64,000 nucleotides of DNA from a bacterium HR40 (GTDB lineage Bacteria > Pseudomonadota > Alphaproteobacteria > Geminicoccales > Geminicoccaceae), in contig BEIQ01000002.1 of assembly GCA_002898275.1 (NCBI GenBank), forward strand, positions 434,001 through 498,000, given 5' to 3'. How positions within the stretch are numbered: the stretch's first letter is position 1; the number at the start of each line of letters is the position of its first letter. Positions 1 to 56,857 of this stretch are shown piece after piece. The notes below the pieces were generated by a model, which did no database searches, was not told the DNA's origin, and worked only from the letters and a program-made list of their open reading frames with translations. The position numbers and the translations under genes were made by a program.

Positions 1-1728
<1,728 letters not shown>

Positions 1729-46103: not shown

Positions 46104-48872
46104 TCAGTGGGCTTCCCCCCAGTTGCGACCCCAGCCGAGCTCCACCTCGAGCGGCACCGACAGCCGGGCCGCGCTTTCCATCGTCTCGCGCACCAGGCTC
46201 GCGGTGGTTTCGATCTCCGCCTCCGGAACCTCGAGGACCAGCTCGTCGTGCACCTGGAGGAGCATCCGCGCCCTCAGCCCGTGTCGGCGCAACCGGCGTT
46301 CGACGCGGATCATCGCTCGCTTCATGATGTCCGCTGCCGTACCCTGGATGGGGGCGTTGATCGCCTGACGCTCGGCGGCGTTGCGCCGCGACGGCACCCG
46401 ATGGTTGATGTCGGCGATGAAGCACCGGCGCCCCCAAATCGTCGTGACGAACCCCTGCTGGCGAGCCAGCTGTACCGTTCGTTCCATATAGGCCCGGATC
46501 TCGGGATAGCGGCGGAAATAGGCCTCGATGTAGTCTCGCGCCTTCTCCTGCGGTATCCCCAGCCTCTGCGCCAATCCCCACGCGCCGATGCCATAGACGA
46601 TGCCGTAATTGATGACCTTGGCGGCGCGTCTCAACTCGTAGTCCACTTCGTCCACCGGCACGCCGAACATCGACGACGCCGCCGCGGCGTGGACGTCCAG
46701 GCCCTTGGCGAAGGCCTCCTTGAGGGCCGGCACCTCGGCGACGTGCGCCAGGACGCGCAATTCGATCTGCGAATAGTCGCCCGACAGCAGGACGTGTCCG
46801 TCCTCGGGAATAAAGGCGGCGCGGATTTTCCGCCCTTCCTCGGTGCGAATCGGAATGTTCTGCAGATTGGGATCGCTCGAACTCAATCGTCCCGTCGACG
46901 TCGCTGCCAAATTGAACGATGTATGAACCCGGCCCGTCGCCGGATCGACCTGCTCGATCAGCGCCTCGCAGTAGGTCCGCAGCAGCTTCTGCAACTGCCG
47001 CCACTCGAGGATCACCCGCGGCAACTCGTGCCCTTGGGCGGCCAGATCCTCGAGCACATCGGCTCCAGTCGACAACGCCCCGGTGGACGTGCGGCGGCCG
47101 CCCTCGAACTTGAGTTCGCCGAACAGCACCTCGCCCAGCTGCTTGGGCGAGCCGAGATTGAAGTGCCGCCCGGCAAGCGCCCAAGCCCTCTGCTCGAGTT
47201 CGGCCATCCGCTCGGTGAATTCCCCCGCGAGCCGCCTCAGCCGCTCCTTGTCGACCTTGATGCCGATGCGCTCCATCGCCGCTACGATGGGCACGAGTGG
47301 TCGATCCAACGTTTCGTACACGGTCGCCACATGTTCGCCGATCACTCCCGATCGCAGCGCCTTCCACAGCCGCAGCGTGACCTCGGCATCCTCCGCGCCA
47401 TAGGCCACCGCGCGCTCGATCGGTACGCGATCGAAGGTGATCTGCTTCGCGCCACGCCCGCATACCGCCTCGTAAGGCATCGTCTCGTAGCCGAGATAGC
47501 GACGGGATAGCTCGTCGAGGCCGTGACCGTGGCTCGTTCCATTGATCGCGTAGGAAAGGAGCATGGTGTCGGCGATCGGCGTCACCGCCACCCCGTGACG
47601 GCCGAGGATCGCCAGATCGAATTTGAAATTGTGGCCGATCTTCAGCACCGACGGGTCACCGAGCACGGGCCCGAGCTCGGCGAGCACCGCCTCGAGGTCG
47701 AGCTGGCCGTCGCGGCGGTTGCCGAATTCGTCGACATGGGCGAGCGGAAGGTAGAATCCCTCGCCTTCGTCGACGGCGAGGGCCATGCCGACGATCCTGG
47801 CTTTCTCGACCGCCAAGGAATCGGTCTCGAGATCGATCGCCAGGACACCCCGCTCGACCGCCCGCTGGAGGATGGCCCGCAGCGCGGCCAGCTCGCAAAC
47901 CCGCTCGAAGCGCGGGCCACGCGCCCCAGCACCCGCGGTGCGCGCCGCCTCCGCTTCTTCCGCCACCTCCTCGAGCCGCGCCACCAGCGACCGAAAGCCG
48001 TTTTCCCGGAAGAAGGCCAACAGCCGTTTGGGATCGGGCTCCCGACGCGCCAAGGTCGCGGGATCCACGGGAAGCGGAATGTCCTCCGCCAGTCCGACGA
48101 GGGCGTAGGAGAGCCGAGCGTTGTCGGCGTGCTGTTCGAGCGCCGCGCGCCGCTTCGGCTGCTTCACCGCATCGAGATGAGCGAGCAGCTCCTCGAGCGA
48201 ACCGAACTCCTCGATCAGTTGGGCTGCCGTCTTGATGCCGATCCCCGGTACACCCGGCACATTGTCCGACGGATCGCCCGCGAGCGCCAGGACGTCGCGC
48301 AGCCGCTGCGGGCCCACGCCGAACCGCTCCTTGACTTCCTCGGGTCCGATCGGCCGGTTCTTGACGGGATCCCACATGGCGATCCCATCGCCGACCAGCT
48401 GCATCAGATCCTTGTCGGAGCTCACGATCACCACCTCGCGGCCGGCGGCGCGCGCCCGGCGCGCGAGGGAGGCGATGACATCGTCGGCCTCGTAGCCCTC
48501 GATCTCGACGATCGGCAAGCCGAACGCCTCTGCCGCCTGCCGTACGAGCGGGAACTGAACGGCCATCTCGGCAGGAGGGGCCTCGCGCTGCGCCTTGTAG
48601 GCCTCGTAGACTCTCTCCCGGAAACTCGGCTTCCCGGTGTCGAAGACGACGACGATGGCGTCCTCGGGGTTTTCCTGCATCAGCTTGAGGAGCATGTTGC
48701 AGAAGCCGTAGACGGCCTGAATCGGCGTGCCGTCCGGCCGGGTCATCGGGGGAAGGGCGAAAAACGCCCGATACACGTAGCCCGACGCATCGACGATCAG
48801 CAGCCGCGACCGGCCTGCCGCCTTCTCTCCCTCCTGCCGCTCCTCCGCCGCCGTTTCCCGCTCTGCCGTCAT
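46104..48872 (-). CDS. polA: DNA polymerase I
   Basis: The 922-residue protein is a full three-domain Pol I. The N-terminal flap nuclease has LLIVDASGYVYRAFFALP, EADDVIASLA and GDPSDNVPG. The proofreading domain is intact: LAIDLETDSL, HNFKFD and YGAEDAEVT carry the metal acids and tyrosine. The polymerase has DYSQIELRVLAH and QVHDELVLEV. In the O-helix, Tyr756 occupies the place of E. coli Phe762 (INYG for INFG; both lie 166 residues from the C-terminus). In the family it fills gaps and removes RNA primers. It is convergent with dctM. Confidence 0.98.
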   Translation of the reverse strand: MTAERETAAEERQEGEKAAGRSRLLIVDASGYVYRAFFALPPMTRPDGTPIQAVYGFCNMLLKLMQENPEDAIVVVFDTGKPSFRERVYEAYKAQREAPPAEMAVQFPLVRQAAEAFGLPIVEIEGYEADDVIASLARRARAAGREVVIVSSDKDLMQLVGDGIAMWDPVKNRPIGPEEVKERFGVGPQRLRDVLALAGDPSDNVPGVPGIGIKTAAQLIEEFGSLEELLAHLDAVKQPKRRAALEQHADNARLSYALVGLAEDIPLPVDPATLARREPDPKRLLAFFRENGFRSLVARLEEVAEEAEAARTAGAGARGPRFERVCELAALRAILQRAVERGVLAIDLETDSLAVEKARIVGMALAVDEGEGFYLPLAHVDEFGNRRDGQLDLEAVLAELGPVLGDPSVLKIGHNFKFDLAILGRHGVAVTPIADTMLLSYAINGTSHGHGLDELSRRYLGYETMPYEAVCGRGAKQITFDRVPIERAVAYGAEDAEVTLRLWKALRSGVIGEHVATVYETLDRPLVPIVAAMERIGIKVDKERLRRLAGEFTERMAELEQRAWALAGRHFNLGSPKQLGEVLFGELKFEGGRRTSTGALSTGADVLEDLAAQGHELPRVILEWRQLQKLLRTYCEALIEQVDPATGRVHTSFNLAATSTGRLSSSDPNLQNIPIRTEEGRKIRAAFIPEDGHVLLSGDYSQIELRVLAHVAEVPALKEAFAKGLDVHAAAASSMFGVPVDEVDYELRRAAKVINYGIVYGIGAWGLAQRLGIPQEKARDYIEAYFRRYPEIRAYMERTVQLARQQGFVTTIWGRRCFIADINHRVPSRRNAAERQAINAPIQGTAADIMKRAMIRVERRLRRHGLRARMLLQVHDELVLEVPEAEIETTASLVRETMESAARLSVPLEVELGWGRNWGEAH

Positions 48873-49029
48873 CTCCGTTTCCGTCCGCCCACTCCCGCCG
48901 ATGCCGACACTAGTGGCGGGCCGCCCCCTGTCGAGAGGTCTTCATCCCCGCCTTGAGTCCCGCGCCGTTGTCCGGCTAAGGACCCTCCCAGCGCCGACCG
49001 CAAACATCCACGGACCAACGAGGACGGCC

Positions 49030-49281
49030 TTGCCACGCATTACCCTCTCCACTGTTCTGCGCCTCCTCCTGGCCTCTTTGCTCGTCGGTGCCCCGCTCGC
49101 CCTGCTCGGCTTCACTCCGCAGGAGCTCCTCGACGGGCTGCGGGGCCTGATCGCCGCCCTCATCGCTGACTTCCGCGGCTGGCTGTCCTTCGCCCTGACC
49201 AGCCTCCTTCTCGGCGCCCTCGTGGTGGTGCCGATCTGGCTGGTCTCGCGCCTCTGGCAGCTGCTCAAGCGCCGGAGTTGA
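49030..49281 (+). CDS. DUF6460-like small membrane protein
   Basis: This protein of 83 residues has two membrane helices (TVLRLLLASLLVGAPLALLGF and FALTSLLLGALVVVPIWLVS) linked by PQELLDGLRGLIAALIADFRGW, the pattern of the small alphaproteobacterial DUF6460 family. The start is a TTG at 49030 with GAGGA upstream; codons further upstream in frame are arginine-rich and lack likeness. Function is unknown. It is divergent from polA across 157 bp and ends just before the candidate RNA gene. Confidence 0.75.
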   Translation: MPRITLSTVLRLLLASLLVGAPLALLGFTPQELLDGLRGLIAALIADFRGWLSFALTSLLLGALVVVPIWLVSRLWQLLKRRS

Positions 49282-49366
49282 GCGTCCGCCGGCAGCTCCG
49301 CCGGTCGCGCGGATCCTGCGACCGCCTGCCGCAGCTGCTGCCCATGCTGCGATGCAATAAAGACCC

Positions 49367-49393
49367 TTGACCTTTGCTGCACTGCGGCATAAA
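49367..49393 (+). promoter_or_regulatory. Candidate housekeeping promoter of the structured RNA
   Basis: TTGACC and CATAAA (four of six -10 positions) stand 15 bases apart in the gene-free stretch after 49281, the most promoter-like pair in that spacer. Two CTGC-N3-GC motifs (49347-49358 and 49377-49386) flank the -35 element; similar CTGC-N3-GCAG repeats bind the polyester regulator PhaR in other Alphaproteobacteria, but this link is speculative. Confidence 0.35.
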
Positions 49394-49399
49394 TCGGGG

Positions 49400-49569
49400 C
49401 CGCGAGCACGGATGGAGCCGGTCGCCACGGAGCCGCCTCGAGGGCCGCCCGCCACGGCAAAAGCTCCATCCCTTGCCGAGAGTTTCCCGGAAAGCCTCCC
49501 TGAACCGCCGGTCCCTTCGAGGGATCGGAACTTGCCCCGGAAGTCCTCGGACCTCCGGGGCGTTTTTTT
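49400..49569 (+). ncRNA. Candidate structured small RNA, about 170 nt
   Basis: A promoter-like pair upstream and an intrinsic terminator at the end bound a transcript with no credible reading frame. Inside it GGATGGAGC (49410-49418) pairs perfectly with GCTCCATCC (49463-49471), and TCCCT-TCG-AGGGA (49512-49524) forms a tight hairpin before the terminator stem. I do not recognise a known RNA class. It could also be a long 3' untranslated region of the small membrane protein gene ending at 49281. Confidence 0.45.
49534..49569 (+). terminator. Rho-independent terminator
   Basis: GCCCCGGAAGTCC pairs with GGACCTCCGGGGC (one A-C mismatch, two-base loop) and is followed by GTTTTTTT. This is the clearest intrinsic terminator in the window. 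It ends 6 bases before the stop codon of the convergent 94-residue gene. Confidence 0.88.
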
Positions 49570-49575
49570 CGCGCT

Positions 49576-49860
49576 TCACACCCGCGCGAAACCCTCTTGC
49601 AGGGCGTCGAGTTTCATATCGTGCCTGAGCGCCAGGCGCGCCACGGCCATTTGCTCCGCCCACTGTTCCGCCGTCAACTCCCACTCGGCCAGTTCCCGAG
49701 GGTCTGCGTCCTCGGGCCGATGCGGCCGGAACACCCAGGCCGGACCTTGGTCATATTTGTGGCGAACGAAGGAACCGAGCGGCAGCAGTTCCTCCGCTAG
49801 CCGATCGGGATTCTCGGCCAGCGCCTGTCGGATTTCCGCCAGCGTTACGAGGGGCGTCAT
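49576..49860 (-). CDS. Small conserved-looking protein of unknown function
   Basis: The 94-residue product is acidic and soluble. It has a helical start (LAEIRQALAENPDRLAEELLP), a central VRHKYDQGPAWVFRPHRPEDADP and a helical end with ELTAEQWAEQMAVARLALRHD. I do not recognise a family. It is read leftward after the isoaspartyl-methyltransferase-like gene with a 99-base gap. Its ribosome site is present twice because of a 15-bp tandem repeat directly before the ATG. The well-placed site and ordinary composition argue for a real gene. Confidence 0.7.
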   Translation of the reverse strand: MTPLVTLAEIRQALAENPDRLAEELLPLGSFVRHKYDQGPAWVFRPHRPEDADPRELAEWELTAEQWAEQMAVARLALRHDMKLDALQEGFARV

Positions 49861-49861
49861 C

Positions 49862-49891
49862 TCTTCCTCCCTTCTCTCTTCCTCCCTTCTC
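49862..49891 (-). repeat. 15-bp tandem duplication carrying two ribosome-binding sites
   Basis: Two perfect head-to-tail copies of GAGAAGGGAGGAAGA (minus strand) stand immediately upstream of the ATG at 49860. Each copy holds GGGAGGA. Only the inner one has usable spacing to the start codon; the outer may act as a standby site. Confidence 0.8.
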
Positions 49892-49959
49892 CCTCGGCCA
49901 CGGCGTCGACCTGGTCTCCTCGCGCTCCTCGACGAGATGACGGAGGCCGCCCGCAGCCG

Positions 49960-50709
49960 TCACGTCCGCTCGCCGCCCTGGAGCGGCGAAAACCGTACCG
50001 GCAGCACGCGCCGCAAGCGCAATCGCCCGCTCGCCTCCTTGCGCCCTACCGAGAGCCACTGCTCGGCCATGGTCGAGCCAACGGGTGCTACCAGTCGTCC
50101 GCCGGTCGCCAGCTGAGTGACGAGGGGCTCGGGCGGCGCCGACACCGCCTCCTTGACGAGGATGACGTCGAATGGCGCCTCTTCCGGCCAGCCATAGAAC
50201 CCATCCCCCTCCCGCACCTCGACATTGGTCACCCCGAGCGCGGCCAGACGCCCGCGCGCCCACTCCGCCAGCTCTGGGAGGAGCTCCACGCTATAGACCC
50301 GCCGCGCCAACCGCGCGGCGAGCGCCGCCTGGTATCCGACATCGGTACCGGTCTCGAACACTCGATCCTGTTCCCGGATCTCGCCAAGATGCAGCATGAG
50401 GGCGGCGATGAAGGGGGCTGCGAGGTTCTGCTCGGGATGTACCGGCAGCGGCTGGGGAGCGTAGGCATAGGGCCAAAGCGGCTCGGGGAGAAAGAGGTGA
50501 CGCGGGACCTCCCGCATCGCCGCGAGGACCCGCGGATCGAGCTCGCCGATGCCGGTCTCGTCCGCGACCATCGCTGCCTCGAGCTGCACCATGCGCACCA
50601 TGGCCGCGCGTTGCTCGGCGAAGTCCGCCGTCTCGATCGCAGCTCCTGCCGGCGAGACCAGTAGCCATGCGGGAAGGCCGAGGATCCTCCGCCGCGTGAC
50701 GCCCTGCAC
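49960..50709 (-). CDS. Exported protein-L-isoaspartate O-methyltransferase-like protein
   Basis: The 249-residue protein has a Pcm-like methyltransferase core: REVPRHLFLPEPLWPYAY, YAPQPLPV, then motif I ETGTDVGYQAALAARLARRVYSVEL. Two features are odd. It begins with a signal-like segment (VTRRRILGLPAWLLVSPAGA, near a Tat pattern). Its SAM loop reads GTDVGYQ where Pcm has GTGSGYQ. It may therefore repair or bind exported proteins, or have lost activity. GTG at 50709 with GGGAG upstream is chosen; the frame is open to 50775. It lies in a leftward run below rtcA. Confidence 0.75.
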   Translation of the reverse strand: MQGVTRRRILGLPAWLLVSPAGAAIETADFAEQRAAMVRMVQLEAAMVADETGIGELDPRVLAAMREVPRHLFLPEPLWPYAYAPQPLPVHPEQNLAAPFIAALMLHLGEIREQDRVFETGTDVGYQAALAARLARRVYSVELLPELAEWARGRLAALGVTNVEVREGDGFYGWPEEAPFDVILVKEAVSAPPEPLVTQLATGGRLVAPVGSTMAEQWLSVGRKEASGRLRLRRVLPVRFSPLQGGERT

Positions 50710-56670: not shown

Positions 56671-56857
56671 GGCCCTGCCGCAACTCCATGTCCTCGAGGA
56701 CATTGTAGGAGCGGAACTGGACCCCGAGTCGAGAGAGCACCTGGACCACGCCGGCCGAGAAGCCGCACTGCGGAAACACCGGCGTGCCCTTCATGTAGAG
56801 CACCACATCGTCGCTCTCGATCTGCCGGCGTATGCGCTCGAACACCGGGTTGCTCAT
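56519..56857 (-). CDS. grxD: Monothiol glutaredoxin GrxD (CGFS type)
   Basis: The 112-residue protein has the KGTP(V/Q)FPQCGFS active site, with Cys31 in the CGFS motif, [19 protein letters not shown] binding glutathione, and the usual C-terminal helix. In the family the dimer holds a 2Fe-2S cluster with two glutathiones and passes it on in iron-sulfur biogenesis, often with BolA as partner. bolA directly precedes it with a 4-base overlap, as in many Alphaproteobacteria. It ends within the antisense tail of the DUF3108-like gene. Confidence 0.97.

Follow-up and report, generated by a model that had tools for sequence, protein, structure and literature searches.

The stretch 49400-49569 of the window (that is, of the whole 64,000-nucleotide piece of DNA analyzed here) raises the question whether it encodes a structured small RNA (sRNA), as a first-pass annotation had proposed, and, if so, what controls this RNA and to which known regulators it compares. 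The location given at that time is borne out by ORF and domain calls: a small membrane-protein gene lies upstream and a convergent ORF downstream, with polA and genes for protein-L-isoaspartate methyltransferase and RNA 3'-phosphate cyclase as further neighbors. The family name used here for the host, probably Geminicoccaceae, derives from comparing polA, which is up to 75% identical to MAGs labeled Alphaproteobacteria and 58-66% identical to Geminicoccaceae MAGs. The features of the locus are as follows (type C genes are the window sRNA gene and its three counterparts in relatives):

46104-48872, minus strand: polA
49033-49281, plus strand: upstream neighbor, 82-aa small protein with DUF6460 (PF20061, 2.2e-8)
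49342-49362, no strand: distal PhaR-like operator CCATGCTGCGATGCAATAAAG, 5' of the -35 element; 18.2 bits, second-best 21-mer of the 64-kb window
49367-49372, plus strand: -35 element TTGACC (the corresponding hexamers of the three relatives are TTGACA, TTGACT and TTGCTG)
49372-49392, no strand: proximal PhaR-like operator CTTTGCTGCACTGCGGCATAA, between -35 and -10; top-scoring 21-mer of the whole 64 kb at 23.4 bits
49388-49395, plus strand: -10 region CATAAATC (in the relatives CATAGATC, CATATCC and CTATAATT)
49403-49569, plus strand: putative small RNA of about 167 nt, 5' end placed from the promoter; fold z -2.8 (49400-49569); 3' module in three relatives
49410-49471, plus strand: 5' hairpin domain closed by GGATGGAGC/GCTCCATCC, from the fold; the relatives' 5' hairpins are of other sequence
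49480-49506, plus strand: near-invariant core GAGTTTCCCGGAAAGCCTCCCTGAACC, in 4/4 type C genes
49508-49528, plus strand: hairpin 2, 9 pairs; two-sided changes in 2/9 pairs; 88.2% of cells pair
49534-49569, plus strand: intrinsic terminator, 11 pairs plus T7, from the fold; 4/11 pairs changed on both sides
49576-49860, minus strand: convergent 94-aa ORF without a family (ORF list, domain search)

The structural elements on which the sRNA proposal rested are all present. The 9-bp long-range helix joins GGATGGAGC (49410-49418) to GCTCCATCC (49463-49471), CCGGTCCCTTCGAGGGATCGG (49508-49528) contains the TCCCT/AGGGA hairpin, which folding extends to nine pairs, and the strong terminator consists of a GCCCCGG...CCGGGGC stem (49534-49561) followed by seven T residues (49563-49569). 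All three are part of the minimum free energy fold of 49400-49569, which reaches -82.4 kcal/mol, compared to -69.1 +/- 4.75 kcal/mol for dinucleotide shuffles (z = -2.8; 2/200 shuffles as good). A terminator pattern scan of 48500-50500 returned four sites, compared to 1.3 expected (sd 1.3), and one of them overlaps the sRNA terminator. Inside the near-invariant core lies a stretch resembling an anti-Shine-Dalgarno (anti-SD) sequence, GCCTCCCTGA (49494-49503). The 5' boundary of the RNA would fall near 49401-49404. The earlier statement that the stretch holds no plausible reading frame also stands: the sole ATG of the transcript (49412) has no good ribosome-binding site, the transcripts of the three relatives are without any ATG (by eye), and the 3' alignment of the type C genes has frame-breaking gaps. 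GTG and TTG frames occur in the stretch, as everywhere in GC-rich DNA of this kind.

Searching 60 genomes, the own one among them, at the DNA level gave three clear matches besides the window's own gene, in genomes G028, G014 and G021, all of genus g15. The matching part is confined to the 3' module (49477-49569), which holds the near-invariant core and, 3' of it, the two hairpins; the core has one extra C in G014 and lacks one A in G021. The 5' parts of the four genes form hairpins of differing sequence and are poorly alignable among each other. In the two 3' hairpins (hairpin 2 and terminator) 93.6% of cells pair (n = 4 sequences), and a check for compensatory changes found 6/20 pairs changed on both sides, a number reached in 3/500 shuffles of these four sequences. 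Shifting the partner strands abolishes pairing in these hairpins, and further pair types are not above shuffles (139/500). A covariance model, R1, built from the four type C genes themselves, recovered only those four in 31 family genomes (86.4-106.9 bits; next match 29.2 bits). Type C is hence found in the own genome and 3/4 g15 genomes, and is absent from G026 (89% complete) and from 26 other family genomes. Among 289 genomes of the class, a sample with three family genomes, none of them g15, the own genome alone passes 1e-4.

The flanking genes do not travel with the sRNA: the DUF6460 protein and the 94-aa protein gave no tblastn match (1e-4) beyond the window's own locus in a search that included the loci of the three relatives. 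A link to polA was rejected as well. In enterobacteria, Spot 42 is linked to polA; the relatives' copies of the present sRNA lie on contigs other than polA's (G028 gave no polA match). Because the 3' module is kept without the flanking genes, shows paired changes and follows an operator-bearing promoter, a free-standing structured sRNA gene is the best reading. The proposal of a structured small RNA is thus supported by a predicted promoter of its own, a conserved 3' module and compensatory changes in two hairpins, and the stretch is very probably a real sRNA gene, whose transcription is predicted from its sequence.

The promoter-like pair, in turn, was confirmed in part. Both elements are present (TTGACC at 49367-49372, CATAAATC at 49388-49395), 86-114 nt 3' of the membrane-protein gene's stop at 49281, but they match only partially: the strict sigma-70 rule is not satisfied, and a strict scan of 48500-50500 returned no promoter-like site. 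The pair is accepted mainly because the relatives keep it and because PhaR-like sites sit on it. These sites were scored with a palindromised matrix built from 18 of the 20 sites in rows marked ‘Efficient’ in EMSA, two of the four exoH sites being omitted (PMC12542648). The matrix represents Sinorhizobium, i.e., another bacterium than the host, and binding was shown there per promoter, not per site. The motif in the sRNA promoter also fits the S. meliloti PhaR consensus WNWD2NYGCRNYGCRNH2WNW, as given there (PMC12542648). After the two operators, the third-best score in the 64-kb window, outside the sRNA promoter, is 11.4 bits. Weak sites at 56758-56778 (11.4 bits) and 1128-1148 (10.8 bits) are within shuffle range. 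In 16 Mb of Markov sequence, two positions scored at least 18.2 bits and none scored at least 23.4 bits, and 0/200 permuted matrices reached 18.2 bits in the sRNA promoter. The three relatives carry sites of 15.7, 14.7 and 14.4 bits, so that 4/4 type C genes score at least 14.4 bits.

In the family, the same matrix gave a site of at least 17 bits anywhere in the locus at 25/30 phasin loci, compared to 1/30 polA loci (the window's own) and 2/30 phaR loci. Two PhaR-like sites (29.1 and 19.5 bits) precede the start of the own phasin gene by 16-88 nt. A PhaR gene is present in the own genome (147.6 bits, cut-off 109.45; L135) and, counting it, in 30/31 family genomes; a phasin is present in 29/31. 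The family genome G029 gave no PhaR match, yet has a 13.2-bit site on its SorX-like gene. The arrangement of the two operators has precedents in S. meliloti: PhaR sites flank the -35 element of phaP1 and phaP2 (PMC12542648, available part), and the control of mmgR depends on a dyad between -35 and -10 (review, PMC8401924, available part). Judged from these matches, the sRNA is likely controlled by PhaR through two candidate operators, on which PhaR is predicted to bind.

The own genome bears two further sRNAs. Type A is a canonical MmgR (36 bits, GUUUCCUCCCUA), located just 3' of an inositol monophosphatase gene (suhB); among the canonical MmgR genes of the collected loci, 0/12 have a PhaR site of at least 12 bits, and one reaches 11.1 bits. 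Two canonical MmgR genes stand in tandem at G020:C7:20243-20573 (L038; RF00519 scores 42.6 and 40.3 bits), in a genome whose best type B match, at 29 bits, is not a clear one. The type B sRNA resembles SorX, has TTTAGCCTCCCTGATC, and stays below threshold for both RF02784 and RF00519. With its own covariance model, R2, type B scores at least 60 bits in 29/31 family genomes and falls short of this in G010 (46.7) and G020 (29); the own copy (L316) is flanked by genes for a LysR-type regulator and a pyridoxamine-oxidase-like protein. Among the 289 class genomes, 137 have an R2 match at E <= 1e-4 and 84 reach 45 bits; the former number overcounts type B, because R2 matches under about 40 bits can be MmgR (e.g., a type A gene at G025:C134, 39.4 bits).

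Several observations on type B and its allies stand on their own. Three type B genes occur in tandem at G011:C126:58969-59696 (L071, L315), with PhaR-like sites of their own (17.6, 21.4 and 10.6 bits). In the type B alignment (16 sequences, columns 37-42/146-151), TCTGGG, in the first hairpin's loop, is complementary to CCCAGA immediately 5' of the seed; 4/6 pairs of the resulting helix are changed on both sides, and in a swap test own partners paired no better overall (-11.1 vs. -11.2 kcal/mol swapped). The interaction is perhaps a pseudoknot or a long-range closing helix that gates the seed. Outside the family (L340-L366), a SorX-like sRNA with ACGTCTCCCAGACGTGAAGCCTCCCTGTT and a terminator is widespread, which scored under the SorX threshold in 20/20 loci tested. 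An upstream PhaR-like palindrome of 15-27 bits was found at 8/27 scanned SorX-like loci (27.0 bits in L357, 20.0 in L356), although some of these palindromes (L360, L361) may reflect a hairpin of the RNA rather than a PhaR site. One of these loci, L341, contains at 49-116 (minus strand) an int-alpA RNA (RF02996; 50.9 bits, gathering score 35.8).

Within the family, the question is which of these sRNAs bears the PhaR operator. Where type B copies score at least 60 bits, 24/29 genomes have a PhaR site of at least 10 bits at the locus scanned, which is essentially the best one per genome. The five loci without such a site are those of the own genome (-5.4), G026, G014 and G028 (-5.7, -5.7 and -7.8), and G013 (6.6), the last keeping the TGCGTTGCA core. 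In the type B alignment, the operator of the own genome is replaced and the adjoining sequence aligns; G014 and G026 have a different promoter, and G028 is not in the alignment. G021 has type C and has kept the type B operator (15.7 bits), and G026 has neither type C nor the type B operator. From these scores, the type B operator is kept in 1/5 genomes of g1 and g15 and in 23/24 elsewhere (Fisher p = 0.001, kinship ignored); type C with an operator is found in 4/5 genomes of g1 and g15 and in 0/26 others. The idea that types B and C exclude each other by genome was rejected: according to R2, the own genome and g15 also possess type B, and it is the operator that differs.

The polA tree, which has rows for 28/31 family genomes and two outside rows (G002 and G012 being broken or partial and G028 without a polA match), places the window genome and three g15 genomes in one clade (support 100/99), with g2 as sister. 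On this tree the simplest course would be that type C arose at the root of g1 plus g15 and that g1 and part of g15 later lost the type B operator. In the own clade, PhaR control thus appears to have passed from the older SorX-like sRNA to type C. Tentatively, and with somewhat less than even confidence, we further suggest that selection maintains PhaR control over some anti-SD sRNA even as one such sRNA replaces another: MmgR in rhizobia, a SorX-like sRNA in most Geminicoccaceae-type genomes, and a new, unrelated-looking sRNA in the own clade, where the SorX-like operator would have been lost afterwards, apparently more than once. If true, the network link would outlast the RNA that carries it, and the operator missing from the older SorX-like gene would be a natural case of rewiring at sRNA promoters. 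Should further sRNAs with PhaR-type operators hold in another alphaproteobacterial family, this would indicate a recurrent design in the control of carbon storage.

As for the function of the sRNA, its core suggests that it acts as an anti-SD repressor, a role we regard as moderately probable; it would repress the translation of target mRNAs, possibly with the use of Hfq. The perfect 10-nt complement of the core, TCAGGGAGGC, occurs five times in the genome, compared to 11 times for the reversed control; two occurrences are sRNA genes, and the other three are inside ORFs, with no gene starting shortly downstream. The phasin mRNA found no support as a target: the pairing energy of its start region (SD GGAGGC) is -15.6 kcal/mol, a value matched or bettered by 72% of 39 control start regions chosen with a crude start picker. 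The corresponding proportions of controls are 82%, 41% and 69% when the phasins of G014, G028 and G021 are used.

The gene anatomy, the conservation of the 3' module with paired changes, the operator matches at the sRNA and phasin genes, the PhaR gene, and the operator's absence from the own SorX-like gene are direct observations, and the following model is built upon them. PhaR is a sensor of the stored carbon polymer: as polyhydroxybutyrate (PHB) builds up, it moves from DNA to the polymer granules. In the model it would sit on two operators flanking the -35 element and repress the sRNA promoter until PHB synthesis titrates it away, and this titration would derepress phasin and sRNA together. 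The RNA of about 167 nt would then expose its GCCUCCCUGA stretch, which could pair with the Shine-Dalgarno regions of carbon-storage or carbon-use mRNAs and block their translation. The outcome would be a brake on the PHB response, and in the own clade the sRNA would replace, as the PhaR-controlled element, a SorX-like sRNA that is older and shares the GCCUCCCUGA core. On balance we favor this model of a free-standing, PhaR-repressed anti-SD sRNA that brakes the PHB response and has succeeded the SorX-like sRNA as the one under PhaR control.

Other explanations of the locus differ in what they concede. The transcript might belong to the upstream DUF6460 membrane-protein gene, as its 3' UTR or as an sRNA derived from that UTR; this gene is encoded on the same strand, ends at 49281, and is separated from the sRNA by no plus-strand terminator-like site in the pattern scan. 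SorX, among the nearest known types, is itself a 3'-UTR-derived sRNA. This origin is nevertheless improbable for the window RNA, which has its own -35/-10 pair with two operator matches, and whose copies in relatives adjoin other genes: DUF6460 is found at no other collected locus, and the G021 region (L192) shares no neighbor, among the genes listed, with those of G028 and G014 (L190, L191). That the stretch is a chance structure in GC-rich DNA, and no gene at all, is a thought prompted by the small number of sequences (four) and the moderate fold z of -2.8; it is very improbable in view of the near-invariant core, the compensatory changes and the operator matches, which lie far beyond chance.

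Two further explanations accept the gene and concern its kinship. The window sRNA could be a diverged member of the alphaR8/MmgR group, with which it has in common a CCUCCCU-type anti-SD stretch, a terminator and, going by the available part of the review on S. meliloti (PMC8401924), the AniA/PhaR dyad between -35 and -10, along with a weak match to RF00519 (19.0 bits). We consider such membership unlikely: the match remains under 41 bits and leaves the GUUUcCUCCCU region of the model largely unmatched, the window RNA having AAGCCUCCCU, and the same genome has a better MmgR (36 bits, GUUUCCUCCCUA) at suhB. Type C could, alternatively, be a divergent paralogue of type B that kept operator and seed and changed its body, instead of an independent invention, a view that concerns the origin only and is compatible with the favored model. 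Types B and C share AGCCTCCCTGA; in both, a PhaR-like site lies upstream and the 5' part is long and structured, and the two coexist in four genomes. However, the own type C gene falls short of E 0.1 with the type B model (that of G021 reaches it, at 18.2 bits), the type C model finds no type B locus at E 0.1, and hairpin 2 is without a type B counterpart, which makes descent from type B possible but doubtful. The free-standing, PhaR-repressed sRNA gene remains the reading with which we compare known systems.

The first-pass annotation knew of no RNA family that matches, and a comparison of the whole window with Rfam agrees, as none reaches its gathering score. The best sub-threshold match of the stretch is RF02837, anti-hemB (26.2 bits, threshold 49.5); RF00519, MmgR, lies at 19.0 bits (threshold 41), and BjrC80, sX13 and ncS037 are other sub-threshold matches. 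RF02784, SorX (gathering score 46.6), is not among the matches of the stretch up to E 10. In the openly licensed literature, as far as its text was available, we found no PhaR-controlled sRNA besides MmgR, and no paper that treats Geminicoccaceae and small RNA jointly.

Anti-hemB of Burkholderia resembles the window RNA in CCUCCCUG and in terminator shape, but the score is well under 49.5 bits and the first stem of the model is largely unpaired in the window RNA. The CCUCCCUG core is likewise common to SorX of Rhodobacter and to the type B sRNAs, and most family copies of type B also have a PhaR-like site and a long 5' domain; unlike in type C, hairpin 2 and GTTTCCCGGAAA are missing from the type B alignment. 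As with SisA-D, the alphaR8 sRNAs of Caulobacter with their sponge CrfA, several sibling anti-SD sRNAs with separate promoters are found per genome (PMC12559287, available part). SisA-D, however, have the canonical 10-mer, and the word PhaR is absent from that paper. The hallmark of alphaR8 RNAs described there is the 10-mer UUUCCUCCCU 3' of a weak hairpin (PMC12559287); it is absent from the window sRNA, which reads AAAGCCTCCCT, and occurs in L043 of the own genome instead.

The closest functional parallel is MmgR of S. meliloti (alphaR8; RF00519 ‘suhB’), which has an anti-SD-like CCUCCCU stretch, an intrinsic terminator and a PHB context, all of which have counterparts here; a Rho-independent terminator, in particular, is a feature of MmgR and alphaR8 that the window sRNA possesses. 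MmgR is also repressed by PhaR (AniA) via a dyad between -35 and -10, going by the available parts of PMC8401924 and PMC12542648, whereas the corresponding site here is a predicted one. The window RNA differs from MmgR in its length (about 167 vs. 77 nt), its extra hairpin, its two operator matches and in having AAGCCUCCCUGAACC where MmgR has UUUCCUCCCU, and its genome bears a separate canonical MmgR without a PhaR site. By analogy, the best reading is that the window sRNA would work like MmgR, yet stands outside the MmgR family by score and 10-mer, though not by its terminator, and outside the SorX family as well.
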